From: Hyphomicrobiales bacterium
Lineage (GTDB): Bacteria > Pseudomonadota > Alphaproteobacteria > Rhizobiales > Methyloligellaceae
NCBI GenBank assembly: GCA_021775575.1
Contig: JAJFHO010000186.1
Span: forward strand, 1 to 36,873
Length of the DNA stretch: 36,873 bases
Reading direction: 5' to 3'
Below, one piece after another: positions 3,019-29,064 of the stretch. The notes beneath the pieces are model-generated. The model saw nothing but the letters and a program-made list of their open reading frames with translations. It was not told where the DNA came from and ran no database searches. The position numbers and the translations under genes are program-made. Each line of letters starts with the position of its first letter. Positions within the stretch are counted from its first letter, which is position 1.

Positions 3019-3304
3019 TCAGCTTCCAAGCTTTTTACAAAATTCGTCCACTGCCCCTTTCTTTTCTGGGGACAGTCGTGGCAGAATCTCAATTAGCCGT
3101 GGAAAACAGGCGGGCATGTAGAACGGGCGCTTGCCGTAGTTTTCCAGGATATTGTAGCGTTCAGGAAGTCGGCCACGACATTTTTGTCAGTGTCTCTCAC
3201 CGAGTCGGCTGCGGCCTCACGTAAAGCGTTTGCATAATCGCAATTGCCGCTTCGCGGTATGCGGATGGATTCCGAGTCGCTTCAGCCTGGAGGGCCAGCG
3301 ACAC
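3019..3304 (-). pseudogene. Decayed or frameshifted gene remnant of unknown family
   Basis: Minus-strand protein-like segments in three successive frames: VSLALQAEATRNPSAYREAAIAIMQTL / DYANALREAAADSVRDTDK / KCRGRLPERYNILENYGKRPFYMPACFPRLIEILPRLSPEKKGAVDEFCKKLGS*. The second junction sits on an A5 run. A minus-strand terminator lies just downstream. Confidence 0.4.
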
Positions 3305-3325
3305 TATGTGGAGGAACTAAATAAG

Positions 3326-3847
3326 ATGGCGTGGACCGACGAACGTGTTGATATATTGAAGAAACTTTGGGCAGAAGGCCTGAGCGCAAGCCAGATTGCA
3401 AACCGGCTTGGTGGGGTTACTCGCAACGCGGTTATAGGTAAGGTGCACCGGTTGGGGCTTTCGGGCCGAACAACGACATCGCGTGCGAATTCATCGCGTC
3501 CGCGCCGCAGGGCCGCGCCGAAAACAACGAGCAGAGGCGGGAGCGGCGGCCTGAGATCCCATGGCAATCTGGCCCTGAAGGCTTATTATGACGCTGATCC
3601 AGACGCCGAGCCGGAGCTTGTATCGGCTCAAATCGAGGAGCTTGTGATTCCGATTAACGAGCGCGCGAGCATCCTGACGCTGAAGGAAAGCATGTGCCGC
3701 TGGCCGATAGGCGATCCCGGCGACAGTGATTTTCATTTTTGCGGCAGATCGTCGGATCAGGGCATACCTTATTGCGAATTCCATTCGCGCATAGCCTATC
3801 AGCCGCCCCAGTCACGGCGCAGGGACAAAAGGAGCGCGGTGCGTTGA
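3326..3847 (+). CDS. gcrA: GcrA cell-cycle regulator family protein
   Basis: MAWTDERVDILKKLWAEGLSASQIANRLGGVTRNAVIGKVHRLGLSGR is the GcrA N-terminal signature; C-terminus has CRWPIGDPGDSDFHFCGRSSDQGIPYCEFHSRIAYQP. GAGGAA about 9 nt upstream of the ATG at 3326. Confidence 0.95.
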   Translation: MAWTDERVDILKKLWAEGLSASQIANRLGGVTRNAVIGKVHRLGLSGRTTTSRANSSRPRRRAAPKTTSRGGSGGLRSHGNLALKAYYDADPDAEPELVSAQIEELVIPINERASILTLKESMCRWPIGDPGDSDFHFCGRSSDQGIPYCEFHSRIAYQPPQSRRRDKRSAVR

Positions 3848-11313: not shown

Positions 11314-11880
11314 ATGATCCAGGCGACCGAAATCCTGCAGGATCTCGACCCGGTCCGTTCCGCTGTTGCCGGGGTCGATGCGCTCCTGAAAGAACATGGC
11401 CAGCTTTCCGTCACCTCACGGCCCGGCGCCGCTGAACCGCTTCTCGATGCCCTGGGCTGGCTGCCGGAAGATGCGCGGGAGGCCGACTATTCAGTCGTCA
11501 ATGAGGAATTCAGGGGTGGCGCCATCGAGGAATTGTTGCGCAAGCTCCCGTTTCGCCATGGCCGTGTCCGGCTGATGCGGCTTGCGCCGAAATCCTGCCT
11601 TTCAATCCACAAGGATTCGACCCGGCGTTACCATTACGCCGTTAGAACCTCGCCGGATTGCTATCTGGTGGAGATGAATGCGACAAGCGGCATCTTCCAT
11701 CACATTCCGGCCGACGGGCGGCTTTACGAGATGGACGCGCGGCGCACGCATACGGCAATCAATGCCGGCCGCGAAGGCCGGGTCCATATCGTCATCTGCA
11801 ACGCGGACGAAACCGACGCGCTGCAAGCGGACGCCGTCGGGCGTGTTCGCGGCCTTGCGCCGGCGGAGGGTTCGGCATGA
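11314..11880 (+). CDS. Aspartyl/asparaginyl beta-hydroxylase-like Fe(II)/2OG oxygenase
   Basis: HxD...H...R pattern: RLAPKSCLSIHKDSTRRYHYAVRTSPDCYL ... RRTHTAINAGREGRVHIVICNAD. AGGGGGGAGGA upstream. Confidence 0.72.
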   Translation: MIQATEILQDLDPVRSAVAGVDALLKEHGQLSVTSRPGAAEPLLDALGWLPEDAREADYSVVNEEFRGGAIEELLRKLPFRHGRVRLMRLAPKSCLSIHKDSTRRYHYAVRTSPDCYLVEMNATSGIFHHIPADGRLYEMDARRTHTAINAGREGRVHIVICNADETDALQADAVGRVRGLAPAEGSA

Positions 11881-11968
11881 CCGGATGCGGGACGAATGCC
11901 CGCTCGCTGCTACGTCGAGGCCCCCGGGTCCGCAACCGCCATGCCGCAGCAGGCCGCCAAGGATGAGC

Positions 11969-13915
11969 ATGGCGGCGGGCAATCTCACCAGGAGACCGTC
12001 GCGCAAGCGCGCCCCCCCGGCCGTGCCGAAAGATAACCTTGTTACGGTTCGCAACCTGCGTATCGCTTTTCAGGAGCACGACCAGGATGTCGAGGTCGTC
12101 AAAGGCGTCTCCTTCCGCATCGAGGCGGGCTCGACAGTCGCGCTGGTCGGAGAATCCGGCGCCGGAAAGTCGGTAATCGGTCAGTCGATCATGGGCATCC
12201 TGCCCAAGATTGCGAGAGTCACGGCCGGTGAAATTCTGTTTGCCGATGCCAAGACGGGCGAGGTGACGGACCTCGCCCAGGTCGATCAGGATTCCAAGCA
12301 GTATCAGCAAATCCGCGGCGGGCGGATTTCGGTGATCTTCCAGGAACCTATGACATCGCTCTCGGCCTATCATACGATCGGCGATCAGATATCCGAGGCC
12401 CTGTTCCTGCATCGCGACGTAACGCACAGCGAGGGTATGGACCTTGTTGTCGAGATGCTCACGCTGTGCGGTTTCCCCGACCCTTCCAAAGCGGTCAAAC
12501 GCTATCCCTTCGAGCTGTCGGGCGGTCTCCGGCAACGGGCCATGATCGCCATGGCGCTGGTCTGCCGTCCGGCCCTGCTGATCGCGGATGAACCGACGAC
12601 CGCGCTCGATGTATCGGTTCAAGCCCAGATTCTAAAGCTCATCAAGGATCTGCAGGCCAAGCTCGGGATGGCCGTCCTGATCATCACCCACGATCTTGGC
12701 GTCGTCGCCAATATGGCCGACGAGGTGATCGTTCTGTTCCACGGTAAGATCATGGAAAGCGGAACGATCAACGACATCTACACCAAACCCAAACACGCCT
12801 ATCTGAAGGGATTGTTCGGCGCTGTGCCGCATTTCGACATGAAGCCGGGCGAGCGGTTGATTTCACCGGCCGATTTGACGCTCGTTTCCCCAATGCCGGA
12901 AGACAATGCCGCCAAGGAAAAAGAGGAAGCAAAGAGGCCCGCGCGCGCCCTGCTGGAAGTTCGCAACCTGACCAAGGAGTTTGTCGCGCGCAAAGGCGGG
13001 TTTTTCGGAGCGTCAACCGAAAACAAGGTCGTCGCGGTTGACGATGTCAGCTTCGAGATTCGGGAGCATGAATGCCTTGGCCTGGTGGGCGAATCGGGTT
13101 GCGGCAAGACCACGCTGTCGAAAATGATCATGCGCGCGCTGGCGCCGACATCGGGAGAAATACTGGTTCACCGCAAAAGCGGCACGGTCGATCTGGCCCG
13201 GAACCGGGACCATGGCGGAGAACTCAATCAGGCCATCCAGATGGTTTTTCAAGACCCTTTCGGGTCGCTCAACCCCCGCATGACCGTTTTCGATATCATC
13301 CGCGAACCCCTGGTGATCCACCGGATCGGCGACCGCGCCGACCATGCCGTGAAAGTGCAGGAATTGATGCGGCTCGTGCGGCTCGATCCGCGCTTTCTGA
13401 CCCGTTACCCGCACAGCTTCTCCGGTGGCCAGCGCCAGCGGATCGGTCTGGCGCGTTCGCTCGCCCTCGACCCCGAACTGCTCATTCTCGACGAACCGGT
13501 TTCCGCCCTCGACGTGTCGATACAGGCGCAGATCCTCAATCTGCTGAAGGACATGCAATCCGAGCTCGGGCTGACCTATCTTTTCATTTCCCACAATCTT
13601 GCGGTGGTCGATTATGTGGCCGACCGCATCATCGTCATGTGCCAGGGACGCATCGTGGAGTCGGCGCCGCGCGAGGTTCTGTTCCGCAATCCCGTCCACC
13701 ATTACACGCGCGCGCTTATTTCCGCCGTCCCCTATGCCGAACTCGACCGGCCGCTCGATTTGAGCGCGCTGCAGGCCGGCGACGGCACGGCCCCGTCGGC
13801 ATGGCCCCCTCCATTCACTTTCGCGCCCGGACAGAAGATGGAATTTCTCGATCTGGGCGAGGAACATAAAGTACTTGTCGCGGTCGGAGCGACGAAGAAG
13901 GACCTTCCCAAATGA
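11969..13915 (+). CDS. Fused double-NBD peptide/oligopeptide ABC importer ATPase (DppD-DppF / YejF type)
   Basis: Two complete ATPase domains: GESGAGKS...LSGGLRQR...[13 protein letters not shown] and GESGCGKT...FSGGQRQR...[13 protein letters not shown]. Start near 11963/11969 (AAGGA upstream). Confidence 0.9.
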
Positions 13916-15846
13916 GCCGGTTTCCATGGGTGATTGCGGTCCTTCTGGCTTTCATTTTGCACGCAAGCCCGGCCTGGCCCGCCGAGCTGAAGGAACCGCC
14001 CTATCTGCAGAGCTTGATCGCTTCGGGCGCCTTGCCGCCGGTGGCCGAACGCCTTCCCCAAGACGCCATGGTCGTCGACATGACCAGCGAGGGAAAAATG
14101 CCGGGCCGCCACGGCGGCGCTTTAAAAATCTTGCTCGGCAAGCAAAAAGATACGCGCATGATCACCGTCTACAGCTATGCGCGTCTGATCGGCTACACGC
14201 CCGACTTCGAACTGAAACCGGACATCTTGAAGAAAATCGATGTTGAGGAGGGGCGCATTTTCACCTTCCACCTTCGCCGTGGCCACCGCTGGTCGGACGG
14301 GCATCCCTTCACCGCGGAGGACTTCCGCTACTATTGGGAAGACGTCGTGGGAAACAAGCAGCTTCGTCCGGGCGGGCCGCCCAAGCAGATGCGGGTCGGC
14401 AAGGAGATCGCGAAATTCGAGGTTATCGACGAAGTCACCGTGCGTTACAGCTGGTCCAAGCCCAATCCGCGCTTCCTGCCCTGGCTTGCCGGTTCCAGCC
14501 CACCGGCGATCTACCGGCCCGCGCACTATCTCAAACAGTTCCATGACAAGTATGGCGATGCGGCGGAAATCCGCAAACGCGTCGAGAGCGAGGGCCGGCG
14601 CAACTGGGCGGATGTGCATTTCAGCCGCGATCGGCCATACCGCGCCGACAATCCCGACCGGCCAATGCTGGAGCCGTGGGTGAACGTCACCGCGCCGCCG
14701 TCGCAGCGCTTCGTGTTCCAGCGCAACCCCTATTACTACCGTATCGATGAAAATGGCCGGCAGTTGCCCTATTTGGACGAAGTCATGGTTACGCTGGGTT
14801 CGGTCGCCATGGTGCCGGCCAGAACCGGCTCAGGAGAAACCAATCTGCAGGCCCGCTATCTGCGCTTTGAACATTACACCTTCCTCAAGCAGGCCGAGCA
14901 GCGCAACAATATGTCCGTGCGCCTCTGGCAGATTCTGAAGTCGTCGCATAAGGCGATCTACCCCAACATGAACACCGCCGACCCGGTCTGGCGGAAACTC
15001 ATGCACGACGTCCGGTTCCGCCGCGCCCTGTCGCTTGGCGTCAACCGGCATGAGATCAATCAGGTGATCTATTACGGTCTTGCGAATGAGAGCAACAATA
15101 CGGTTTTCCCCGCCAGTCCTCTGTACAGGCCCGAATATCAGTATAACTGGGCGAAGTTCGACATTGAGCAGGCCAACGCGCTGCTCGACGAGATCGGTCT
15201 CACCAAACGCGACGAAGAAGGAACGCGATTGCTCCCCGACGGACGGCCCGCGCATATGATCATAGATCTGGCCGGCGAGAGCACCGAGGAAAGCGATATT
15301 CTCGAACTGGTCCGCGAAAGCTGGGGGCAGATCGGCCTTAAGCTGTTCCCGCGCCCGTCACAGCGCGAAGTGTTCAGGAGCAGGGTTTTCTCCGGCGAAG
15401 CGCTGATGTCGATGTGGGCGGGCTTCGGAAATGGCCGCTCCACGGCGCAAATGAGTCCTTACGCCTTCACGCCGACGCAGCAATATCAGTATCAGTGGCC
15501 GCAATGGGGCCTTTATGTTTCCACCCGCGGCAAGAAAGGGCAGAAGCCGGAGCTTCGCGAGGTCAACCGTCTGATCGAGCTCAACAAGGAATGGCTCGGC
15601 TCTGTCGGCGAAGAAGATCAGACGCGCATCTGGCGGGAAATCCTTCAGATCAACGCCGATCAGGTGTTCACCATCGGTACGGTCAACGCGACGTTGCAGC
15701 CAATCGTCGTATCCAACGACATGCAGAATGTACCTGAGAAGGGATTTTACAACTGGGACCCGGGCGCCTATTTCGGCATTTACAAACCTGACACTTTCTG
15801 GATCAAGCAGATCGAGAAAAGCGCTGCGGTTGCGGCGGACAAATAA
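13912..15846 (+). CDS. Extracellular solute-binding protein family 5 (peptide ABC importer)
   Basis: Signal peptide [52 protein letters not shown] and DVRFRRALSLGVNRHEINQVIYYGLA are family 5 hallmarks. ATGA overlap with the upstream ATPase. Confidence 0.9.
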   Translation: MSRFPWVIAVLLAFILHASPAWPAELKEPPYLQSLIASGALPPVAERLPQDAMVVDMTSEGKMPGRHGGALKILLGKQKDTRMITVYSYARLIGYTPDFELKPDILKKIDVEEGRIFTFHLRRGHRWSDGHPFTAEDFRYYWEDVVGNKQLRPGGPPKQMRVGKEIAKFEVIDEVTVRYSWSKPNPRFLPWLAGSSPPAIYRPAHYLKQFHDKYGDAAEIRKRVESEGRRNWADVHFSRDRPYRADNPDRPMLEPWVNVTAPPSQRFVFQRNPYYYRIDENGRQLPYLDEVMVTLGSVAMVPARTGSGETNLQARYLRFEHYTFLKQAEQRNNMSVRLWQILKSSHKAIYPNMNTADPVWRKLMHDVRFRRALSLGVNRHEINQVIYYGLANESNNTVFPASPLYRPEYQYNWAKFDIEQANALLDEIGLTKRDEEGTRLLPDGRPAHMIIDLAGESTEESDILELVRESWGQIGLKLFPRPSQREVFRSRVFSGEALMSMWAGFGNGRSTAQMSPYAFTPTQQYQYQWPQWGLYVSTRGKKGQKPELREVNRLIELNKEWLGSVGEEDQTRIWREILQINADQVFTIGTVNATLQPIVVSNDMQNVPEKGFYNWDPGAYFGIYKPDTFWIKQIEKSAAVAADK

Positions 15847-15916
15847 GCTTGAACCGGGGGAGAATCGGGGCAGTGAGCGGCAAGAATCGCAATATCGGTG
15901 AAGCCGGAGGCAAGCC

Positions 15917-16915
15917 ATGATCGGTTTTGTCTTGCGCCGCATTCTTTTGATGATTCCAACCCTCTTGGTGATTTCAATGATCGTTTTCACGATCATTGAA
16001 TTACCGCCCGGCGACTATCTGGAAAGCTATGTTGCGGAGCTGCAGGCGCGGGGCGAAACGGTCAACGAAGACGAGATCAATTTTCTCCGCGAGCAATATG
16101 GCTTCGGCCAGCCCGTCGTCCAGCGCTATGTCGACTGGGTCTGGGGGATGCTGCATGGGGATTTCGGATATTCGTTTGAATACCGGTTGCCGGTTTCCGA
16201 TATCGTTGGCGACCGTATCCTCCTGACCATCGTGGTCTCGCTGGCGACCATTATATTTACCTGGCTCGTGGCGTTTCCAATCGGCATCTACTCGGCCACG
16301 CATCACTATAGCTGGGGCGATTACGGTCTGACCTTCCTCGGCCTGCTTGGACTGGCGACGCCCAACTTTCTGCTCGCCCTTGTCCTGCTCTATCTCGCAA
16401 ATGTCTGGTTCGGAACCTCGATCGGCGGTCTCATGGAACCGAAATATCTCGACCAGGCCTGGTCCTGGGGCAAACTCGTTTCAGTGCTGGAGCATTTGTG
16501 GATTCCGGTGGTCGTCGTCGGCACCGCGGGCACCGCGGGTCTTGCCCGCCGGCTGCGCGCCAACCTGCTGGACGAGTTGCAGAAACAATATGTCACAACC
16601 GCCAAGGCGAAGGGGTTGTCCCCGGCCAAGGTGCTCATCAAATATCCGCTGCGCGCGGCGATGAACTTCTTTGTTTCGGACATCGGTCATCTGCTGCCGG
16701 CGATCATTTCCGGCGCCGAGCTGACCGCGATCGTGCTTTCGCTGCCGACGACGGGACCGGTGCTGATCTCTGCCCTGCAGAGCCAGGACATGTATCTGGC
16801 CGGGTCCTTTCTGATGTTCCTGTCAACGCTGACGGTCGTCGGCGTTCTGGTGTCCGACCTGGCGCTCGCGGTCCTGGACCCCCGGATTCGTCTTGAAGGG
16901 GGGCAAAGCCGGTGA
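15917..16915 (+). CDS. Peptide ABC importer permease (DppB/YejB type)
   Basis: MIGFVLRRILLMIPTLLVISMIVFTIIELPPGD...; YVTTAKAKGLSPAKVLIKYPLRAAMN permease EAA-like loop. Confidence 0.92.
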   Translation: MIGFVLRRILLMIPTLLVISMIVFTIIELPPGDYLESYVAELQARGETVNEDEINFLREQYGFGQPVVQRYVDWVWGMLHGDFGYSFEYRLPVSDIVGDRILLTIVVSLATIIFTWLVAFPIGIYSATHHYSWGDYGLTFLGLLGLATPNFLLALVLLYLANVWFGTSIGGLMEPKYLDQAWSWGKLVSVLEHLWIPVVVVGTAGTAGLARRLRANLLDELQKQYVTTAKAKGLSPAKVLIKYPLRAAMNFFVSDIGHLLPAIISGAELTAIVLSLPTTGPVLISALQSQDMYLAGSFLMFLSTLTVVGVLVSDLALAVLDPRIRLEGGQSR

Positions 16916-18090
16916 AACCGCGCCAGATACCCAAACCCGGGCAGAAATTGCCGCATTACACCTCCCGGGAACCATTCGAGCATGCCGCCGCTGCCCGTCT
17001 GACGCCCGAACAGGAGCGCTACTATCTCGCCTCGCAATGGCAGTTGATGTGGTGGCGGTTCAAGCGGCACCGGCTCGCCGTGATCTCCGCAGTCTTCCTG
17101 CTGCTGGCTTACGGCTCGATTTTTATTACCGAGTTCCTGTCGCCTTACAATCTGCATTCCCGGCATGTCGACCAGATCTACATGCCGCCGCAAAGCGTCC
17201 ATCTGTTACACGACGGCTCCTTTATCGGCCCGTTCGTTTACGGAACGCATTACGAGCTCGATATGCAGAATTTGCGGCGCGTCTATACCGAGGACAAGTC
17301 GAAGATTCACCGTCTCCAATTCTTCTGTTCCGCCGACAGCTACAAATTCTGGGGGCTGATTGAGGCCGACAACCACCTGTTCTGCGTCGAGGATGGCGGT
17401 ACGATATTTCTGCTCGGCACCGACCGTCTGGGACGCGATATCCTGTCGCGCCTTTTATCCGGCGGCCGGATTTCGCTGACCATCGGTCTCATCGGCATTG
17501 TCCTGAGTTTCACCATGGCGATCACGATCGGCGGCCTTGCGGGCTATTACGGCGGGATTGTCGACCTCTTCGTTCAGAGGGTCATCGAAATCCTCCAGAG
17601 TTTCCCGCAAATTCCGCTATGGATGGCGCTGGCCGCGATCCTGCCGGTCACCTGGTCGCCGCTGCTGATCTATTTCGGCATAACCGTCATTCTCGCCCTG
17701 CTCGACTGGACCGGACTTGCGCGCGCAGTGCGTTCCAAGCTGCTGGCGCTGCGCGAGGAGGATTATTGCATGGCGGCCCGGGTCATGGGCGCCAGTCCCA
17801 ACCGCGTCATATTCCGCCATCTTATGCCCGGCGTCATGAGCCACCTGATCGCGTCGGCGACATTGTCGATCCCGAATATGATCCTCGGCGAAACCGCGCT
17901 GAGCTTCCTGGGGCTCGGCCTCAGGCCGCCAATCACAAGCTGGGGCGTTTTGCTGAACGAGGCACAGAATATCAATGTGGTCGCGTTGTACCCCTGGCTC
18001 ATTTTTCCAGTGGTTCCGGTGATCCTTGTGATCCTCGCCTTCAATTTCGTCGGCGACGGGATGCGCGACGCCGCCGATCCCTACAAGTAG
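16912..18090 (+). CDS. Peptide ABC importer permease (DppC/YejE type)
   Basis: GTG start overlapping the upstream stop; WWRFKRHRLAVISAVFLLL; GTDRLGRDILSRLLSGGRISLTIGL; DYCMAARVMGASPNRVIFRHLMPGVMS. Confidence 0.92.
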   Translation: MKPRQIPKPGQKLPHYTSREPFEHAAAARLTPEQERYYLASQWQLMWWRFKRHRLAVISAVFLLLAYGSIFITEFLSPYNLHSRHVDQIYMPPQSVHLLHDGSFIGPFVYGTHYELDMQNLRRVYTEDKSKIHRLQFFCSADSYKFWGLIEADNHLFCVEDGGTIFLLGTDRLGRDILSRLLSGGRISLTIGLIGIVLSFTMAITIGGLAGYYGGIVDLFVQRVIEILQSFPQIPLWMALAAILPVTWSPLLIYFGITVILALLDWTGLARAVRSKLLALREEDYCMAARVMGASPNRVIFRHLMPGVMSHLIASATLSIPNMILGETALSFLGLGLRPPITSWGVLLNEAQNINVVALYPWLIFPVVPVILVILAFNFVGDGMRDAADPYK

Positions 18091-18915: not shown

Positions 18916-19941
18916 TCAATCCCGGGCGATATACCGGCCGCTCTTCTGCATGATCTTATAAATACGGCATGTGGTGCAGGGCACATCGTCCCGCGCCTCC
19001 GCCCGGCCGGTCACCATGGCGCGCGCATAGTTGACCTGCTCGCTGTTCAAGGCCGCCTCCAGACCATCGTCGAAGGCATTGACGTCAAACGCCTTCCAGG
19101 TGTTCCGGCAACAGCCGAATATCTCGCCATTCCAGTTGACCTGCGGCTGGTCCCAGAGCTGGTGGCAAAGCCGCTGCATGTAATGGTGGCCGAATTTCTC
19201 CTTGAATTCGCTGCGCGAGGCAACGCCGTCGGTCTGCTTGGCGCGAACCGCCTGCACATCCTGGACGGGCGAATAGGATTCATCCCAATTCAGCTTCATG
19301 AAGAAGTCCATGCCCAGGCGTTCGGCCATGGCGCGCGCATCATCGATCTCATGCTCATTGTGGCCGAAAACGACGAATTGCCAGGTCAGTTCAGGATACC
19401 GGCTTGCGTGCTTCTCTTTGTGACGGTTCAGCGTCTCTATGTTGGCGATGACGGTATCGAAATCCCCCGCAACGCGGTATTTCTCATAGGTCTCCGCCGA
19501 CGCGCCGTCGAGCGAGACGCGCATATGGCGGAACCGGTAGCGCACCAGATCCTCCAGCACTTTGGCGCGAACAGTGTTGAGATTTACACCGTTCGACGCT
19601 GTCAGCCGAACATTATGCTCATGGGCATAACGCACAATTTTCGACATATGCGGATTGAGAAAAATCTCTCCATTGTTGGAAAGCTCAACTTCCTCGACCC
19701 AGGGATTCTCGTCGACAAGCGTCCTGAAGTCATCGAATTTGAGGAAGCCGGCGCCGATATATTTGTGGATTTCACCGGTCGCGGTCTGACAGACGGGACA
19801 TTTCAGCTGACAATGGGTGCAGGCCTCAAGGCGAATATTCGGCGGCCGCGATGCCGCCGGCGGGAGGGCTGTCGTCTCGTCCGCGGCGTCGGTCATTTCC
19901 ACCAAGGCTACTTCGTCGCTCAGAGTCATTTTGTCCGTCAT
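18916..19941 (-). CDS. Radical SAM / SPASM domain protein
   Basis: Start at MTDKMTLSDEVALVEM (19941). Contains CTHCQLKCPVC (CxxxCxxC) and C-terminal Cys clusters CHQLW...GEIFGCCRNTW...CTTCRIYK. Confidence 0.88.
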   Translation of the reverse strand: MTDKMTLSDEVALVEMTDAADETTALPPAASRPPNIRLEACTHCQLKCPVCQTATGEIHKYIGAGFLKFDDFRTLVDENPWVEEVELSNNGEIFLNPHMSKIVRYAHEHNVRLTASNGVNLNTVRAKVLEDLVRYRFRHMRVSLDGASAETYEKYRVAGDFDTVIANIETLNRHKEKHASRYPELTWQFVVFGHNEHEIDDARAMAERLGMDFFMKLNWDESYSPVQDVQAVRAKQTDGVASRSEFKEKFGHHYMQRLCHQLWDQPQVNWNGEIFGCCRNTWKAFDVNAFDDGLEAALNSEQVNYARAMVTGRAEARDDVPCTTCRIYKIMQKSGRYIARD

Positions 19942-20373
19942 GGCCGCCTCGCGGTACTTTCGGTAAACCGATTGGGTTTTGACCCTAGCATTGAAATAGG
20001 GTGAACAGAATGGACCGGTTGAGCGCACGGAGGGAGGGCCTTGGTGACAAATCTAAGCCTGGCGGTTCGCGGCCCGCCTCTCAACCTGTCGGCGCAGAGG
20101 CTCATCATGCCTTTAATATCGCTGACTAAAAACCCGTTTGCGCCGTTCAACGGTGCGCGTTAACCATAAAGATATTCGACAAACTGTGTTGGCGAAACCT
20201 GCCATTTTGCAGGGTAAATTGTGCGTGTCATTGTCTGTTCACCATAGTAGGATTGAGCGAATATAGGGGTTGCGAAATGCCCCTTTTTCGTTCCGTTGCG
20301 GGGGCATGGAACGCAAAGCACCTTAGAGGGTAAATTTCGAAAATCGATTCTGGCCGGGTAGGGGTAGAGAGTT

Positions 20374-21588
20374 ATGAGCGAGCGGCTCGACGGCGCGCGT
20401 ATGTTGATTTACAGCCACGATACATTTGGCCTCGGTCATTTGCGTCGGTGCCAGGCGATCGCCCACGCGCTGGTCGAGCGCTACAAGGGCCTTTCCATCA
20501 TCATTCTGTCGGGCTCCCCGATCATCGGCAGTTTCGACTTCCGGGCCCGTGTGGATTTCGTCCGTGTGCCGGGCGTAATCAAACTCTACAATGGCGAATA
20601 TACCTCGCTGGCGCTGCATATCGATATTCAGAGCACCCTGGCGATCCGCGCCTCGATCATCAGGCATACAGCGGAGGTCTTCCACCCCAATCTGTTCCTT
20701 GTCGACAAGGAACCGCTCGGTCTGCGTGGCGAAATCACCGAGACCCTGCACCTGCTCAAGGGCATGGGAACGAAACTGGTGCTTGGCCTGCGCGATATCA
20801 TGGACGAGCCGAAATTGCTGCGCCGGGAATGGGAATCGCGCCAGCTTATGCCCGCGCTGGCCGGCCTCTATGACGAAATCTGGGTCTATGGCCTGCAGGA
20901 GGTCTGGAATCCCCTGACCGATCTGGAGATACCGCAGCAGGTTACCGACAAGATGCGCTACACGGGTTATCTCAAACGCTCGCTACCGCAACGCGTCAAG
21001 CGCACGCCGGCCGCGGAAGTGAAAGAGCCCTATATTCTCGTGACCGGCGGCGGCGGCGGCGACGGACATGACCTGATCGACTGGGTGCTCCGGGCCTATG
21101 AATCCGATCCCACCCTGCCTTATGCGCCTCTGTTCGTCCTCGGCCCCTTCATGAACGCCGATCAGCAGGAAGAGCTGACAGGGCGGATCGAGCAATTGCC
21201 GGGCGCCAACACCATCACCTTCGACAGCCATGTCGAATTCCTGATGGCGGAGGCAGCCGGCGTCATTGCGATGGGCGGCTACAATACCTTTTGCGAGATC
21301 CTGTCCTTCGACAAGAAGGCGATTATCGTGCCACGCTGCAAGCCTCGGCAAGAGCAGCTTATCCGGGCGCAGCAGGCCAGCCGGCTTGGACTGGTGCGGA
21401 TGATCGATCCGGAAAGAATAAAGGATCCATCGGTCATGGCGACGGCAATCCGCGAGCTTCCCAATCAGCCCAGGCCATCCTCGACGCTTCTGCCGGGGAT
21501 GCTTGACGGATTGGACAAGGTCGCCAACCTGGCGCGGCCTCACCTTCTCGGCGTCGAAGAGAAGCAGGCCGTCGTCGAAGCGGTTTAG
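20374..21588 (+). CDS. GT28/MurG-like predicted glycosyltransferase (COG4671 type)
   Basis: RMLIYSHDTFGLGHLRRCQAIAHALVE; C-terminal VTGGGGGDGHDLID...VIAMGGYNTFCEILSFDKKAIIVPRCKPRQEQLIRAQ. Confidence 0.8.
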   Translation: MSERLDGARMLIYSHDTFGLGHLRRCQAIAHALVERYKGLSIIILSGSPIIGSFDFRARVDFVRVPGVIKLYNGEYTSLALHIDIQSTLAIRASIIRHTAEVFHPNLFLVDKEPLGLRGEITETLHLLKGMGTKLVLGLRDIMDEPKLLRREWESRQLMPALAGLYDEIWVYGLQEVWNPLTDLEIPQQVTDKMRYTGYLKRSLPQRVKRTPAAEVKEPYILVTGGGGGDGHDLIDWVLRAYESDPTLPYAPLFVLGPFMNADQQEELTGRIEQLPGANTITFDSHVEFLMAEAAGVIAMGGYNTFCEILSFDKKAIIVPRCKPRQEQLIRAQQASRLGLVRMIDPERIKDPSVMATAIRELPNQPRPSSTLLPGMLDGLDKVANLARPHLLGVEEKQAVVEAV

Positions 21589-21602: not shown

Positions 21603-22859
21603 GTGACCGGCACTGTCGCATTCATCCTCAAGGGGTATCCGCGCCTCTCCGAAACCTTCATCGCGCAGGAAATTCACGGTCTCGAACAACTCGGTCTCGA
21701 TATCCATATCTATTCCCTGCGTCCGCCCCGCGAGCCCGAGAGACATCCTGTCCACGCCCAGATTCGCGCGGACGTCACCTATTTGCCGGAACGCCTGCGC
21801 GATGATCTCCCGCGCGTCTGGCGCGCGCTCAGGCAGGCGACAAGCCGCCCGGGATTCAAGAAGGCGCTGAGACGCTGGATCTCCGATATGCTGCGCGCAC
21901 CCTCTCCCGACCGTGCACGCCGCTTTGGCCAGGCGCTGGTGCTGGCCGGCGAAATCACGCCGGAAACCACGCACCTGCACGCCCATTTTCTGCACACGCC
22001 TTCCTCAGTCGCCCGATACGCGGCCGCGCTCACCGGCCTGCCCTGGAGCTGCTCGGCGCATGCGCGCGATATCTGGACGATCGGCGATTGGGAAAAGCGC
22101 GCCAAACTCGGCGAGATGGACTGGCTCGTGACCTGTACGCGGACGGGCTGCGCTCATTTGGCGGAACTCACGCCAACACCGGCAAAGGTCGAGCTGGTCT
22201 ATCACGGATTGGATTTGGAGCGCTTCTCTCCTCCGGCGGCGCGGGCGCCAGCGCGCGACGGCACGAAAGCGAGTGATCCCGTCCGGCTGCTCTCGGTCGG
22301 GCGGGCGGTGGAGAAAAAAGGTTTCGACCTTTTGCTGAAGGCGTTCGCTTCCCTCGACAAAGGCACCCATTGGCGCTGGGTCCATATCGGCGATGGGAGC
22401 CTGATCGATCCGCTGAAAGGTCAGGCGCGCAGATCGGGTCTGGAAGAGCGGATCACATGGCTTGGCGCGTGCCCGCAAGCTCAGGTGATCGATCAATATG
22501 CCCGTGCGGATTTGTTCATTCTGCCCTCCCGCATAGCCTCGGACGGTGACCGCGACGGACTTCCCAACGTTCTGGTCGAGGCGCAATCGCAGGGCCTGTG
22601 CTGCCTGTCGACCCGCCTGCCCGCGATATCGGAACTGATCGACGACGGCATGACGGGGCTCCTTGTGCCGGCGGACGAGGCCAGCGCCCTCACCGCGGCA
22701 CTGGCGCAATTGATCGGCGATCCGGATTTGCGCCGGCGGCTTGGCGAAGCGGGCCTGAAAAAAGTGCGCCGCGACTTCTCTCACCACACCGGTCTGGCCA
22801 AGCTCGCCCGGCGCTTCGGCCTGCCGCCCACCGACCAAAGCACACGGCCGGCGGCATGA
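21603..22859 (+). CDS. GT4-family glycosyltransferase
   Basis: FILKGYPRLSETFIAQEIHGLEQLGLDIHIYSLR; LLSVGRAVEKKGFDLLLKAFA; DLFILPSRIASDGDRDGLPNVLVEAQSQGL. Confidence 0.9.
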   Translation: MTGTVAFILKGYPRLSETFIAQEIHGLEQLGLDIHIYSLRPPREPERHPVHAQIRADVTYLPERLRDDLPRVWRALRQATSRPGFKKALRRWISDMLRAPSPDRARRFGQALVLAGEITPETTHLHAHFLHTPSSVARYAAALTGLPWSCSAHARDIWTIGDWEKRAKLGEMDWLVTCTRTGCAHLAELTPTPAKVELVYHGLDLERFSPPAARAPARDGTKASDPVRLLSVGRAVEKKGFDLLLKAFASLDKGTHWRWVHIGDGSLIDPLKGQARRSGLEERITWLGACPQAQVIDQYARADLFILPSRIASDGDRDGLPNVLVEAQSQGLCCLSTRLPAISELIDDGMTGLLVPADEASALTAALAQLIGDPDLRRRLGEAGLKKVRRDFSHHTGLAKLARRFGLPPTDQSTRPAA

Positions 22860-24022
22860 CCCGGCTTCTGATCCATGTCCAGTATCTCAAGGGAATTGGC
22901 CACCTGCAGCGCGCGAAGCTGATTGCCGAGGCCGCCGCCGCGCGGGGGCTTGATGTGCATATCGCCTCCGGCGGCCTGCCGGTTGCGGATTTCCGTCCCG
23001 GGGGCGCCGCGGTCCACCAGCTCCCGGCGCTTCAGGCCGGCCCCGGCGGCTTCACGGATCTGCGCGACGCAGATGGGAAGCCGGTCGACGACGCCTGGCG
23101 CGCAACGAGACAGGATAAATTACTGGCCCTGTTCAGGCAGGTTCGCCCGGATATTCTGCTGGTCGAGAGCTTTCCTTTCGGCCGCCGCGCGCTGTCATAC
23201 GAACTGGTGCCCCTGCTGGAAGCCGCGCACGGGCGAAGCCCGCGTCCGGCGGTTCTGTGCTCCCTACGCGACATTCTTCAGACCAACCGCAAGCCCGGCC
23301 GGACGAAGGAAACCCTTTCGCGCCTGCGCGAGTTTTTCGACGGCGTGCTCGTCCATGGAGATCCGGACTTTGTTCCGCTGGAGGAGACATTCGCGAGAAC
23401 GCCGGAAATCGCAGGCCTGCTTCGCTACACAGGTTTCGTCGCGGCGGACAAAGAGGCCTTCGAGCCGCGCCCCGAAACGCCGCGCGGCGAAGTCATCGTC
23501 TCCACGGGCGGCGGCGCCATTGGCCCCGCGCTTCTCGACGCGGCGCTCGCCGCGCGGCCCGATACGCCGTTTCACGATACGCCCTGGCGGCTGATTGCCG
23601 GCCCGCACCTTGCGCAGAGTGACTATGAACGGCTGCTCCATACCGCGCCCGATGGCGTCGCCGTGGAGCGGTTCCGTAATGATTTCAGAGCCTTGATGGC
23701 GGCAGCGAAGCTTTCCATCTCCTATGCCGGCTATAATACGGTAACGGATCTTTTGCGCGCGCGCGTGCCAAGTGTGCTGATCACCTATGGCGGCGAAGAG
23801 GGGCGCGAGACCGAGCAGGCGATGCGCGCGGCACGGCTCAGCGGCGGCGGACTGGCAGCAACGCTGTCCGATGCGGAACTTTCGCCGGACACCCTTTTGC
23901 GGGCGATTGAGGAGGCCGATGCATGCCGGCCCGTGCCCGCATGCGATTTCGATCTGGAGGGCGCCGCCAAGTCGGCCGATATATTAGCTGGATATGATTG
24001 CGAGGCAGCGGCCGCGGGTTGA
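22856..24022 (+). CDS. Second GT28/MurG-like predicted glycosyltransferase (COG4671 type)
   Basis: MTRLLIHVQYLKGIGHLQRAKLIAEAAAARGLDVHIASGG; STGGGAIGPALLDAAL; AAKLSISYAGYNTVTDLLRARVPSVLITYGGEEGRETEQAMRA. ATGA overlap with the upstream GT4. Confidence 0.8.
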   Translation: MTRLLIHVQYLKGIGHLQRAKLIAEAAAARGLDVHIASGGLPVADFRPGGAAVHQLPALQAGPGGFTDLRDADGKPVDDAWRATRQDKLLALFRQVRPDILLVESFPFGRRALSYELVPLLEAAHGRSPRPAVLCSLRDILQTNRKPGRTKETLSRLREFFDGVLVHGDPDFVPLEETFARTPEIAGLLRYTGFVAADKEAFEPRPETPRGEVIVSTGGGAIGPALLDAALAARPDTPFHDTPWRLIAGPHLAQSDYERLLHTAPDGVAVERFRNDFRALMAAAKLSISYAGYNTVTDLLRARVPSVLITYGGEEGRETEQAMRAARLSGGGLAATLSDAELSPDTLLRAIEEADACRPVPACDFDLEGAAKSADILAGYDCEAAAAG

Positions 24023-24119: not shown

Positions 24120-25226
24120 ATGTATACACAGAGCGACATAAGGGCGATCCATCTGGAGGTTACGACCCATTGCAACGCGCATTGCCCGCAATGCCCGCGC
24201 AATATCGATGGCGGCGCCCGCAATCCGAACATGCCGCTGACCCAGCTCTACCTCGCCGATATCGAAAAGATCTTTCCCCGCCCCGACTTTCCAAACCTCA
24301 AGCGGATACAGGTGTGCGGGAATTATGGCGACGCGATCATGGCCCGGGACTTCCTGGAGATTGCGCGCTATCTCAAGAGCCTCTACCCGCATATTTCGAT
24401 AACGCTCGCAACCAACGGTTCGTTGCGCCCGGTGGATTGGTGGCGCGATCTGGCGGTGCATGTGGACCATTGCGTGTTCGGAATAGACGGTCTGGCCGAC
24501 ACCCACGCCCTCTATCGCCGGGGAACCGACTTCGACACGATCATTGCCAACGCGAAGGCCTATATCGCCGGCGGCGGACGGGCCGAATGGGCCTATCTGA
24601 TCTTCAGGCACAACCAGCATCAGGTCGACGAAGCGCACCGGCTGAGCCAAGAACTGGGCTTCCATGAATTTTCCGCCAAGGCGACAAGCCGTTTTTACGA
24701 CGAGGGCCGCAAGGCGGCGACAAGTCCGGTGCGCGATGAAAGCGGGGAGATCGTCTATCGTCTCGAAGCGCCTAGCGACGTCCGGCTCGGCAATGCCGAA
24801 CTCGACCGCCTCGACCAAACGCTGCTCGGCGACGCGCAAAAATTCAACGACTACATCACCAGCACCAAGATCGACTGCAAGGCGATCAGCCGCGCCAAGC
24901 TTTATATCAGCGGCGAAGGGCATGTCTTTCCCTGCTGCTGGGTCGGAAATATTTATCCTTCCGACAAGTCCTGGCGGGATACCCAAAGAGGAGGCGCCAT
25001 CCTGCGCAGCGGCGGACTGGATCTTCTCGACGCCAAAATCCACCCGATTGGCGCCATTCTCGAAGGCGAGTTTTTCAAACGCACCGTGCCGGAGGCATGG
25101 AAATGCGGCCCTGACCGGCTGAAGGTCTGTTCCAAGATGTGCGGTGAAGTCGATATCAATCTGGCGCAATATGTCGACTATACGCCTCGGTCCGAAGACC
25201 GGGAGGAGGAACAGCTGGAGGCGTAG
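24120..25226 (+). CDS. Radical SAM / SPASM domain protein
   Basis: HLEVTTHCNAHCPQCPRN (CxxxCxxC); ATNGSLRP; SPASM-like CKAISRAKLYISGEGHVFPCCWVG...CGPDRLKVCSKMC. Confidence 0.85.
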   Translation: MYTQSDIRAIHLEVTTHCNAHCPQCPRNIDGGARNPNMPLTQLYLADIEKIFPRPDFPNLKRIQVCGNYGDAIMARDFLEIARYLKSLYPHISITLATNGSLRPVDWWRDLAVHVDHCVFGIDGLADTHALYRRGTDFDTIIANAKAYIAGGGRAEWAYLIFRHNQHQVDEAHRLSQELGFHEFSAKATSRFYDEGRKAATSPVRDESGEIVYRLEAPSDVRLGNAELDRLDQTLLGDAQKFNDYITSTKIDCKAISRAKLYISGEGHVFPCCWVGNIYPSDKSWRDTQRGGAILRSGGLDLLDAKIHPIGAILEGEFFKRTVPEAWKCGPDRLKVCSKMCGEVDINLAQYVDYTPRSEDREEEQLEA

Positions 25227-25242: not shown

Positions 25243-25959
25243 CTATTTCCGCCCGATCAGCATGAAGCGGGTGTATTTCTCAAGTTCAAGCTGCCCGGCG
25301 AACAGCAGCTCGCTCATCGGCGCCTGGCGCTTGAAGGCCTCAAGGCTTTCAACGCAATTCACATGCTCGGGGATCACCACATAATTGTTCGACTGGAGAA
25401 CCAGCGTCACACCGTCCGGCAGGCGCGCATACCAATCGTCGAATGCAGCCAGATGCTCGCAGCTCGTATTGACGATGATGTCGGGTCGGGTGAGACCATC
25501 GGGCAGTGCTGAATAGTCCAGTGCGTAGATGTCGTGGCAGGCGAAGGCGAAGCGGCCTGTCTTCGCATGGGTCGCATTCAGGCTGAGTGCTACTTCCTCG
25601 CAGGAGGGATCGACATCGACAACAGTGAGTTTCTCCACCTGCAACTGCTTCTCCGCCAGCAGCATCGCGCCTAACAGGCCGTACCAGCCGGCAAGGATAT
25701 GAATTGTCCCCAGCTCAGGCCCGCAGGCGCGCGCCAGCTCCTCGACAAGCCACTTCTTGCAGGCCGTCTGCTTCTTGTTGAGGGCGATGCCGAGTGCCGA
25801 GTCCGGATAGGCGAGAACGGTGTCGCGGACATCCCGGATAAAGGGGTTCTGGTAGAGGACCGCGAGCCCGTCCAGAATGTCCTTGAAGGACTGAACTGTC
25901 GGATCGAGATCGCGTCCGACCGCTTCCGGCCAGACCGGCCACCGCTTTGTCACATCCAT
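25243..25959 (-). CDS. Class I SAM-methyltransferase-like protein with a variant motif I
   Basis: TIHILAGWYGLLGAMLLAEKQLQVEKLTVVDVDPSCEEVAL ... HDIYALDYSALPDGLTRPDIIVNTSCEHL; Rossmann-like layout with acidic VDVDP. Starts 3 nt after the stop of the 1033-aa gene. Confidence 0.6.
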   Translation of the reverse strand: MDVTKRWPVWPEAVGRDLDPTVQSFKDILDGLAVLYQNPFIRDVRDTVLAYPDSALGIALNKKQTACKKWLVEELARACGPELGTIHILAGWYGLLGAMLLAEKQLQVEKLTVVDVDPSCEEVALSLNATHAKTGRFAFACHDIYALDYSALPDGLTRPDIIVNTSCEHLAAFDDWYARLPDGVTLVLQSNNYVVIPEHVNCVESLEAFKRQAPMSELLFAGQLELEKYTRFMLIGRK

Positions 25960-25962
25960 CCC

Positions 25963-28900
25963 TCAGGCGGCCTTTTGCTGACTCATCATCGTATTGGCCA
26001 GCCGCTCGCTGGCAATACGCGCCGCATTCGCGGCAACTTTCGGGTCGTTCTCGATGATCTGCAGGAACGGCTCCTTTTCTATTTCAAGGGCGACGACCTT
26101 GGAAAAGGCCCGGGCGCCGGCGGTCCGGGGCACCGTCGCGAGCAGCGCGATCTCACCAACCGGTTCGTGCTGGCCCAGACGCGCAACCTGTTTCTCATCC
26201 GGCGTGCCATCGTCGAGCAGGATGTCAACTTCACCGGACAGGATCACATAGGCCGCATTGCCCTTATCGCCTTGACGGAACAGGGTCTCGCCCCTTTCAA
26301 AGGTGACGCGCTTGGAGCCGAATGCCAGCAGTTTCAGATTGGAGGAACGGATATCGCGGAACATCGGCACTTTCGCCAGCGCCGCCGCCTCCGCCTGGAT
26401 TGCCATGGGCGCTTCGGCCTCCTCTTCCGCTTCGGCGGCAACCGGTTCAACGACGTGCTCTGTCGCGTCGACGATACGCTTCTCGATTCGGCCGTCGCGC
26501 AGCACGAGAACCTCGTTGAAATCCTCAGCTTTGGGGGTTTCACTATCGAGCCAGATGACGCTCGTCCCGGGCAATAGTTTGAAAATATTCTGCCGGATAC
26601 GGTCGACGGTCTCGCGATCATATGCGCCAAGCGCATTGTTGATGATCAGGATTTTCGGGCGTTTGATGATGCTGCGGGCCAGCCCCAACCCCTGGCGCGC
26701 GGCCGTGGTCAAACGCTGACCGCCAATCCCGGCCTCGGAATCCATGCCGGATATGATCACGTCTTTCAGCAAATCCATTTCCGTAATCACGTCGTGCAGC
26801 AACTCGTTCACTTTCGACTCCGCATTGGCGCGCTGCTGATTGTTCCGCCCCATAATCAGGTTGCGCCGGATCGAAAGCTGGGGATTGAATTTGTCCGGCT
26901 CGTAAAATGCAATCGCATCCGCCAGCTCCTCGGGCAGCGTGTCGTGGAACAGTTTGCGGGCCTCGACGATTTTCGACTGGAACGCTTCGTCGATATGGCC
27001 CAGCCGGTGCCGCTCGACACTTATCCGCGACGTCAGGGAAATCAATTCGGCCCTGTCTTTTTTGTCCAGCGCCGCAATGCCACCGTCCTCGCCCTTGGCC
27101 AGTATTCCCGCCAGCCGGTCGACTGTCGCATTGTCGACAAAGCTGAGCCGCTCAAGCAGGCCGGATTCGGCTTCACCATCGCCAAACATGTCAACCAGAT
27201 TGCCGGCAACCTCGAATCCGATTTCCTCGAATTGCCGTTCCAGTCCCGTTTCGGCGAGGATCGACCGGATAAAGGCATTGGTGCCGAAATTCTTCGGCGC
27301 CAGCCGATCATCCATGGGCTGCCCGAACAGCAGGTTGGTTCCGATCGCCGCACTGACGTTGAAAGTGTCGAAATCATACCGGCGGATGAGCTGGCTGAGC
27401 GCCTCATCCGACTCGAGCCGGGCAACAATATGTTTGCGGGCTTCCAGCAGTTTTTCGGGCAGGTGCGGGGTCCGGGTTTCGTCCACACGCGCGTTCAGGG
27501 CATGCTGCAAGACAATCTCATCGAGCTCGACGGATCGGATAATCTTGAACCACCAGTCCTGCAATTCCTCGACACTCGAAACGCCTGCCGACTTGAAATC
27601 CGTCCAGTCCTGGTCGCGGTCGTAGGGGCTGTTGCCGGAGGCCGCGGCTTCCATCGGGTCATACTCGCCGATATTGCCGGGAATTTCGCGCATCAGCCCG
27701 TAAACCGAGTTGTAGCCGATCGAGCCTTCGAAAATATAGGTCTCCGCTCCGGCATAGCCGATTTGCGAGCCGAGAACCTTGTCGGAGACCTGCGCCAGAT
27801 TGCGGCCGCCGACAAACACCTGCCCGCTACTCGGCTGGGTCAGGCGCGTCATGATCTGGGCAAGCCGGTCGCGGCCGGTATCACCCGCGACGATCGCCAG
27901 CTTGCCGCCCGGCGGAACCTCGAACGACACCGAGTCCAGCGGTTTGCTGCCATCCTCATCCGACACCGTCAGCTTGTCGAATTTGAGTGATCCGGCGAGA
28001 GGCTCCGCCTCTCCGGTGTCAGGCTCCAATATATCTCCGTTCAACAGAGACCCCAGTTCGAAATTCTCGACCAGTTGCTGATATTTGAGCCCGGCATCGC
28101 CAACGCGCTGATAATATTTCAACAACTCCTTCCAGGGAGTCGTGAGCTGGGCGTAAGCGCCCAGCGCCGCCACCAGCTGACCGACATCCAGCCTGCCGCT
28201 GAGGATCAGGAGCCCGCCGACCGAATAGAACAGCAGCGGCGTCATCTTCAGCAGAAACACATTGAGCGCCTTCATGAAATATTTGGTTTTGAACAGCCTG
28301 TAACGGACCTTGAATATGCCATCTAGATGTTTGGAAAAATCCGCCTGACTGAACACCTCGGTATTGTTGGCGCGGATATCGCGAATGCCTGAAACCGATT
28401 CGCCGACGCGCCCGGAAAGTTTGCGGGCCCGCTCGATACGGTCGCGGTTCATCAGATTGATTTTTCGCTGCAGCTTGGGGATTACATAGGCCTGCAGCGG
28501 TATCAGCGCGATACAGGCGACACCCATCAGCCAATCCTGGACAAACATAAAGGTCAGAATGACCAGCAATGTTCCGCCCTGGTAGACAGGCAGTGCAATC
28601 GCGTCGGCGATAAAATCGCGGACCAGCTCGACTTCGCCGGCGATCATCGTCGAAAGCTCGCCCTGGGAGACGCGCTGAAAATGCGGCAGGGGAAAGCGGA
28701 GTATGCGCTGATACAGCATATAGCGAAGCCGCCGCGTCATGCGCTCCGACATCAGATTCTTGGTCGTGTTGGTCGTCATGAGGAAATAGGCGTTCGCCAT
28801 GAGCAGAAAAAACAGAACGGCGCACAGGGTCAGCAGATAGCTCGCCTGGTCGAATTCGATCCCGAAGCAGACACGCGGGAATCCGCCACCCTCGCAGAAA

Positions 28901-29064
28901 AATGGAGCTGTCGTGGAGGTGGTCTTCAGGGCATCGTTGACGATGATTTTCGGTAGCTCGAGCGTCGCATAGAGAAAGGGGAAGGAGGCGAGCGTGATCA
29001 GCGTGATCGCGAATTGCTGCCGCTTGCTGTAACGCCAGATAAAATCGTAGATACTTTTTTCCAT
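25963..29064 (-). CDS. ABC exporter-like protein with degenerate NBD, large NBD insertion and C-terminal cyclic-nucleotide-binding domain
   Basis: 1033 aa: type IV exporter-like TMD (aa ~1-330); NBD-like region with GDTGRDRL in place of Walker A, IGGQRL signature-like, ILIINNALGAYD in place of Walker B/D-loop; CNB domain VPMFRDIRSSNLKLLAFGSKRVTFERGETLFRQGDKGNAAYVILSGEVDILL...GEIALLATVPRTAGARA. Confidence 0.85.
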   Translation of the reverse strand: MEKSIYDFIWRYSKRQQFAITLITLASFPFLYATLELPKIIVNDALKTTSTTAPFFCEGGGFPRVCFGIEFDQASYLLTLCAVLFFLLMANAYFLMTTNTTKNLMSERMTRRLRYMLYQRILRFPLPHFQRVSQGELSTMIAGEVELVRDFIADAIALPVYQGGTLLVILTFMFVQDWLMGVACIALIPLQAYVIPKLQRKINLMNRDRIERARKLSGRVGESVSGIRDIRANNTEVFSQADFSKHLDGIFKVRYRLFKTKYFMKALNVFLLKMTPLLFYSVGGLLILSGRLDVGQLVAALGAYAQLTTPWKELLKYYQRVGDAGLKYQQLVENFELGSLLNGDILEPDTGEAEPLAGSLKFDKLTVSDEDGSKPLDSVSFEVPPGGKLAIVAGDTGRDRLAQIMTRLTQPSSGQVFVGGRNLAQVSDKVLGSQIGYAGAETYIFEGSIGYNSVYGLMREIPGNIGEYDPMEAAASGNSPYDRDQDWTDFKSAGVSSVEELQDWWFKIIRSVELDEIVLQHALNARVDETRTPHLPEKLLEARKHIVARLESDEALSQLIRRYDFDTFNVSAAIGTNLLFGQPMDDRLAPKNFGTNAFIRSILAETGLERQFEEIGFEVAGNLVDMFGDGEAESGLLERLSFVDNATVDRLAGILAKGEDGGIAALDKKDRAELISLTSRISVERHRLGHIDEAFQSKIVEARKLFHDTLPEELADAIAFYEPDKFNPQLSIRRNLIMGRNNQQRANAESKVNELLHDVITEMDLLKDVIISGMDSEAGIGGQRLTTAARQGLGLARSIIKRPKILIINNALGAYDRETVDRIRQNIFKLLPGTSVIWLDSETPKAEDFNEVLVLRDGRIEKRIVDATEHVVEPVAAEAEEEAEAPMAIQAEAAALAKVPMFRDIRSSNLKLLAFGSKRVTFERGETLFRQGDKGNAAYVILSGEVDILLDDGTPDEKQVARLGQHEPVGEIALLATVPRTAGARAFSKVVALEIEKEPFLQIIENDPKVAANAARIASERLANTMMSQQKAA

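Follow-up and report, generated by a model that had tools for sequence, protein, structure and literature searches.

A degenerate ABC exporter family linked to a cyclic-nucleotide-binding domain and glycosyltransferase genes in Alphaproteobacteria: a candidate surface-glycan membrane protein

Introduction

SbmA and BacA are peptide transporters (SLiPT) that have an exporter-like membrane domain without an NBD and are driven by an ion gradient. Type IV ABC exporters include MsbA, Sav1866, TmrAB, TM287/288, and P-glycoprotein. The protein described here resembles these exporters in its membrane-domain fold, in the order of its NBD segments, and in its match to the Pfam family ABC_membrane, but it lacks their catalytic motifs and carries an insert of ~320 aa and a cyclic-nucleotide (cNMP)-binding domain. 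By general description it also resembles SbmA/BacA, in which an exporter-like membrane domain functions without an NBD, but it has a full-length pseudo-NBD and thus does not belong to that NBD-less type. A third comparison is TIGR03896, a model of bacteriocin ABC-export cNMP proteins, in which a cNMP-binding domain is also associated with an ABC exporter; the match was weak, 37.5 bits against a cut-off of 161 bits for the cNMP partner protein.

Two systems on the megaplasmid pSymB of Sinorhizobium meliloti are also relevant. MsbA2 (SMb21191) is likewise an ABC exporter-type protein encoded beside glycosyltransferases (PMC3687685). According to the main text of PMC10128002, nine genes between smb21252 and smb21271 were found by Tn-seq to be required for an uncharacterised surface polysaccharide, the phazolicin-protecting polysaccharide (PPP). 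Our literature search found no description, for this group, of a degenerate exporter linked to a cNMP-binding domain. Here we analysed a stretch of 36,873 nucleotides (the window; contig JAJFHO010000186.1) from a Hyphomicrobiales bacterium that encodes such a protein.

Results

Domain organisation and altered ATP-site motifs

The gene and the parts of its product are as follows.

25963..29064, minus strand: pseudo-ABC exporter fused to a cNMP-binding domain, 1033 aa (ORF and Pfam)
28045..29064, minus strand: exporter-type transmembrane domain, aa 1-340 (PF00664, E 8.2e-29; Pfam match aa 76-310)
27724..28002, minus strand: N-terminal part of the degenerate NBD, aa 355-447, with altered Walker A and the Q-loop (Pfam and alignment)
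27862-27885, minus strand: altered Walker A GDTGRDRL, aa 394-401 (coordinate check)
27724-27756, minus strand: Q-loop YAGAETYIFEG
26767..27723, minus strand: ~320-aa insert between Q-loop and signature, aa 448-766 (alignment, conservation, AlphaFold)
26995..27474, minus strand: repeat unit U2 of a Q-loop-like segment, aa 531-690 (hhalign)
26695..26994, minus strand: repeat unit U3, aa 691-790, extending into the signature (hhalign)
26470..26766, minus strand: C-terminal part of the degenerate NBD, aa 767-865, with altered signature, Walker B, and H-loop (alignment)
26710-26727, minus strand: altered signature IGGQRL (coordinate check)
26617-26652, minus strand: altered Walker B ILIINNALGAYD (coordinate check)
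26542-26559, minus strand: altered H-loop VIWLDS (coordinate check)
25987..26379, minus strand: cNMP-binding domain, aa 896-1026 (PF00027, E 6e-19; Pfam match aa 920-1007)
26107-26157, minus strand: phosphate-binding cassette GEIALLATVPRTAGARA of the cNMP-binding domain

The ORF runs without interruption to a single terminal stop, as the first-pass annotation had stated in describing an intact frame of ~3.1 kb. Pfam matched ABC_membrane, ABC_tran, and cNMP_binding in it, and the ABC_tran match was confined to the first half (aa 376-448; 28.5 bits, cut-off 25). The whole protein was modelled at a pLDDT of 80.7 and matched type IV exporters in Foldseek, with target TM-scores of 0.56-0.60 for TmrAB, TM287/288, and MsbA, so that PF00664 and the predicted fold both identify an exporter-type transmembrane domain. 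Against the MsbA lipid A exporter model TIGR02203 the protein scored 143.3 bits, below the equivalog cut-off of 602, and none of three family members scanned reached the cut-off of any NCBIfam model.

Motifs were placed by alignment with solved exporters and with canonical exporters from the same genome and the same taxonomic order. In this alignment the altered residues occupy the true positions of the Walker A, signature, Walker B, and H-loop motifs. Where canonical Walker A reads VGPSGAGKST, the window protein has V-AGDTGRDRL, with Arg for Lys and Asp for Ser, and so departs from the GxxGxGK[ST] consensus. Canonical Walker B LLDEATSALD is replaced by IINNALGAYD, in which NN stands for the Asp and the catalytic Glu, and the H-loop IAHR is replaced by WLDSE, in which Ser stands for the switch His. 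The first-pass annotation had read a P-loop without Lys and Ser/Thr, NN for DE in ILIINNALGAYD, and VIWLDS at the switch-His site; all three coordinates were exact and the alignment placed the same residues there. Its signature IGGQRL was also located exactly, but the change goes beyond what it described: LTTAA, followed by RQ, aligns with LSGGQ, and the consensus is absent.

A widespread family under purifying selection

Homologues were found in 22 of 60 related genomes. They are mostly full-length, with identities from 60% down to about 32%, and have the degeneration in common with the window protein; what had been presented as a property of one protein is thus a trait of a whole family. The family matched 98 of 289 genomes in an Alphaproteobacteria-wide sample and 32 of 399 in a phylum-wide sample, where all but one match fell within Alphaproteobacteria. 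The GTDB species genomes contained at least 572 confirmed relatives, and among the matches listed were Azospirillum, Inquilinus, Reyranella, Thalassospira, Sneathiella, Tistrella, and Rhizobium. Plasmid records contributed members from Sinorhizobium, Rhizobium, and Ruegeria; where these carry a product name, it is usually 'ABC transporter transmembrane domain-containing protein' or 'ABC transporter ATP-binding protein'. A contig scan with the single window protein as query gave no matches, while the alignment as query recovered relatives. The gene is single-copy in most genomes that carry the family, and full-length copies came from both isolates and MAGs. A search of the window's own genome for a canonical paralogue or partner gave no match closer than distant exporters (E 7.5e-17 or weaker).

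Omega estimated from close pairs was ~0.01-0.27 in every domain, with one outlier of 0.56, which indicates purifying selection. The NBD evolves faster than the membrane domain, yet it is constrained. Because distant full-length homologues share the degeneration and the domains are under selection, pseudogene decay is contradicted: the motif loss in the aligned sequences exceeds chance, and the first-pass denial of ordinary decay is borne out.

Related forms were also identified. NBD-less relatives of 382-437 aa have the same membrane domain and form one separate clade (L152:9773-11077 from Phaeobacter inhibens pP74_a, L189, L190, L191, and L184). The Phaeobacter protein is 36% identical across the whole membrane domain, and its gene sits among copper oxidase, copper-binding, TolC, and cytochrome c genes. 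Three other proteins of 863-880 aa (L185, L186, L194) keep the insert and have a more degenerate NBD and a membrane domain that the family profile barely recognises.

The ATP site across the family

ATP-site residues were counted over an alignment of 123 members. Lys is present at Walker A in 62/123 and the following Ser/Thr in 15/123, with K[ST] together in 8/123. At Walker B, Asp is kept in 16/123 and the catalytic Glu in 60/123, with DE together in 6/123, and the switch His is kept in 31/123. The commonest states are GK or GR followed by Asp/Glu at Walker A, and Asn-Glu at Walker B. Thus, both Mg-handling positions are altered almost throughout the family; the Lys, Glu, and His positions are variable. 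The homologue collection and alignment proposed at first pass found all five canonical residues in aligned positions in only one of the 123 members (L133). The non-canonical reading is therefore not refuted, and some members may still hydrolyse ATP.

Explaining the Lys position alone on the unrooted membrane-domain tree takes a minimum of 20 state changes. Rooting with canonical exporters was tried and rejected since the outgroup branches were too long, and with no reliable root the direction of change at the ATP site is not fixed. The window clade has R-D-N-N/D/E at these positions, Rhizobium has A-E-N-R (Ala for Lys, Arg for Glu), and in the S. meliloti homologue Walker A and Walker B read GGTSGGGEAL and FNQ and the switch His is missing. 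Since about half of the members keep the Walker A Lys and about half the catalytic Glu, many of them may bind ATP or hydrolyse it slowly. A 'dead ATPase' fits the residues in the window clade and in Rhizobium/Sinorhizobium, with mixed residues elsewhere in the family. The earlier claim that canonical ATP hydrolysis has been lost is very probably right for the window protein, and is the best reading for its closest relatives; for the family as a whole, which is mixed, it is less certain.

A conserved insert within the NBD

The ~320-aa insert, which the first-pass annotation had missed together with the C-terminal cNMP-binding domain and the family-wide degeneration, was seen in 22/22 members examined row by row and, by length, in 122/123. 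Its near-invariant residues are W487, R543, N577, RHR685-687, and R703; W487, R543, N577, and R703 are 100% conserved, and the insert residues are far better conserved than the Walker residues. In hhalign comparisons, U2 and U3 form a tandem repeat (probability 98.9, E 3.4e-17), and the Q-loop unit matched the first insert unit with a probability of 90.0. U2 and U3 matched the canonical Q-loop segment, represented by three exporters only, in register and weakly (probabilities 30 and 21). This suggests that U2/U3 may be derived from the canonical Q-loop segment. Modelled alone in AlphaFold, the insert is predicted with confidence to fold by itself (pLDDT 94.7, pTM 0.88). No Pfam family covers it, and comparison with solved structures by sequence and fold gave nothing significant (best Foldseek E 1.1).

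The cyclic-nucleotide-binding domain

The window protein matched PF00027 at 68.3 bits (cut-off 27.5), and its phosphate-binding cassette has the expected Gly-Glu and Arg (GEIALLATVPRTA). These residues are conserved in 94-98% of the family domains (Gly 113/115, Glu 108/115, Arg 108/115). The domain is fused to the exporter in 23/123 loci and encoded by a separate gene directly downstream in 92/123, a total of 115/123; no cNMP domain was found in the remaining 8, some of which are at contig ends. In known proteins the cassette residues bind the cyclic phosphate and ribose, and certain proteins with the cNMP-binding fold bind nothing. From its cassette, a cyclic nucleotide is the probable ligand of the window protein. 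The intact cNMP-binding domain, fused or adjacent in these 115 loci, gives separate support to the first-pass suggestion that the protein may be a sensor or ligand-gated membrane protein.

The window's own genome encodes nine class III cyclase domains. On pSymB of S. meliloti R14 (L158), a class III adenylate/guanylate cyclase gene at 21685-23034 lies ~12 kb upstream of the pseudo-ABC gene and directly before importer genes, and similar class III cyclases occur in several other pseudo-ABC loci.

Glycosyltransferase neighbourhood

The following genes of the window surround the pseudo-ABC gene.

20374..21588, plus strand: glycosyltransferase-like protein (GT28_C; GT28a), the constant partner (Pfam, co-occurrence)
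21603..22859, plus strand: GT4 glycosyltransferase (Pfam)
22598..24022, plus strand: second GT28_C-type glycosyltransferase (GT28b), true start probably downstream of 22598 (Pfam)
25243..25959, minus strand: methyltransferase-like protein, family assigned by eye (homologues beside the pseudo-ABC gene)
11678..18090, plus strand: oligopeptide-type importer with a double ATPase, SBP_bac_5, and two permeases (Pfam)

GT28a was present in 94 of 289 genomes, and 92 of these are among the 98 with a pseudo-ABC gene (Fisher p 2.6e-65, phylogeny ignored); it was adjacent to the pseudo-ABC gene in 26 of 30 genomes checked. Across 45 loci with long flanks, GT28a occurred in 34, GT4 in 36, GT28b in 36, and the importer ATPase in 25, where paralogues could be among the GT4 and importer matches. 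The importer block is also beside the pseudo-ABC locus in R. etli, S. meliloti, and Azospirillum. Collinearity of the importer, glycosyltransferase, pseudo-ABC, and cNMP genes extends to R. etli p42e and S. meliloti and, in part, to Azospirillum. From this neighbourhood, it is highly likely that the pseudo-ABC protein works in a glycan pathway.

The methyltransferase-like gene starts 3 bases downstream of the pseudo-ABC gene. Its product has no Pfam match, and a homologue adjoins the pseudo-ABC gene in 12 loci. Two radical SAM genes (18916-20028, minus strand; 24120-25226, plus strand), one with a SPASM domain, interleave with the glycosyltransferase cluster, and neither has a homologue within the 45 related loci. 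The window also encodes a class III aminotransferase (1715-2911, minus strand), the cell-cycle regulator GcrA (3230-3847, plus strand), and a transglycosylase-domain protein (4051-6486, plus strand).

The homologous locus of S. meliloti

The S. meliloti homologue lies on pSymB at 841723-844435 (NC_003078, L159). The copy in NC_003078 (S. meliloti 1021) is one base longer than that of most strains, and the frame breaks early in the gene. No homologue was found at 870-912 kb of pSymB. MsbA2, considered as the homologue, was ruled out by position, since one gene of the msbA2 operon lies near 938 kb and the homologue locus is elsewhere, at 841.7-844.4 kb.

Gene numbers were obtained by counting genes, in one S. 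meliloti pSymB record, between SMb21252, a glycosyltransferase, and SMb21265, a glycosyltransferase family protein (both as given in the main text of PMC10128002), and SM_b21272, a LacI-family regulator (PMC11387232). By this counting we infer that the homologue is SMb21269 and its cNMP partner SMb21270. By gene position and content, the S. meliloti pseudo-ABC locus matches the PPP cluster as delimited in the main text of PMC10128002, the homologous gene being in the same gene set, between the glycosyltransferases and the LacI regulator. That text does not name the pseudo-ABC homologue among the nine PPP genes. It reports that phazolicin sensitivity rose about eight-fold in insertion mutants of smb21252 and smb21265 and about two-fold in a mutant of the adenylate cyclase gene cyaA, the latter an effect its authors call small. 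The window resembles the PPP cluster in having neighbouring GT28_C-like, GT4, and GT28_C glycosyltransferases, but its gene set is split over two strands and includes the two radical SAM genes.

Discussion

We propose that the window protein serves a surface glycan as an exporter-derived membrane protein under cyclic-nucleotide control and acts without canonical ATP hydrolysis, a reading based on sequence comparison and gene linkage to which we give a probability of roughly 55%. The NBD of a type IV ABC exporter homologue would have become a regulatory or structural pseudo-ATPase, and the protein would be an inner-membrane component of a surface-glycan pathway. Its C-terminal domain would bind cAMP or cGMP, and the signal would pass via the pseudo-NBD and the insert, through conserved cytoplasmic loops, to the membrane domain. 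This domain would then gate the movement of a glycan or glycolipid, or the activity of a glycosyltransferase, without canonical ATP hydrolysis. Whether the protein moves the glycan itself instead of regulating enzymes is a finely balanced matter, and we lean slightly against movement. A more specific version is doubtful: a cyclic-nucleotide-gated glycan transporter or channel on an ABC-exporter fold, with no ATP hydrolysis and an undescribed NBD-internal domain as relay, in about a third of the sampled alphaproteobacterial genomes.

The protein might instead be a regulator or scaffold and not a transporter, with a membrane domain that serves as an anchor and relays the cyclic-nucleotide state to the glycosyltransferases. 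The lost ATP site, the tight linkage of the glycosyltransferase genes, and the presence of the cNMP domain would all suit this role. However, the conservation profile shows the membrane domain as the best-conserved region across the family, it has the fold of transporting exporters, and it alone is retained in the NBD-less relatives, all of which makes a pure regulator rather unlikely.

These relatives, with the 36% identity of the Phaeobacter protein across the whole membrane domain, could be taken to indicate a secondary transporter whose membrane domain is driven by an ion gradient without ATP, by analogy with SbmA/BacA. We consider this improbable, as purifying selection retains the pseudo-NBD and the insert, and no coupling residue was identified in the window protein.

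Known heterodimer halves of exporters retain more of their core catalytic motifs, while all such motifs are altered in the window protein. It is thus quite improbable that it is the degenerate half of a heterodimer like TM287/288 or TmrAB, with the canonical half encoded elsewhere, even though these degenerate-site heterodimers are among its best fold matches and canonical exporters are present in the genome. The recurrent neighbour families that we examined included no recognisable canonical exporter half.

An unconventional but working ATPase, in which Arg/Lys-Asp/Glu in the P-loop and Asn-Glu at Walker B support hydrolysis, would account for the Lys and Glu kept in about half of the members and for the five residues of L133. 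It is very improbable, because Lys, Ser/Thr, Asp, Glu, and His are missing together in the window protein and in the Rhizobium members Ala replaces Lys and Arg replaces Glu. Pseudogene decay or an assembly error, to which the lost motifs alone might point, has practically no chance of being correct given the full-length copies in many isolate and MAG genomes and the low omega values.

The exporter-derived, cyclic-nucleotide-controlled protein that we favour belongs to a large and widespread family annotated solely as ABC transporters, and its insert is a domain for which no solved relative was found. If our reading is right, an exporter membrane domain has been uncoupled from ATP hydrolysis and placed under second-messenger control. 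The membrane component that is missing for an S. meliloti envelope polysaccharide affecting sensitivity to an antibiotic peptide might then also be found in this family.
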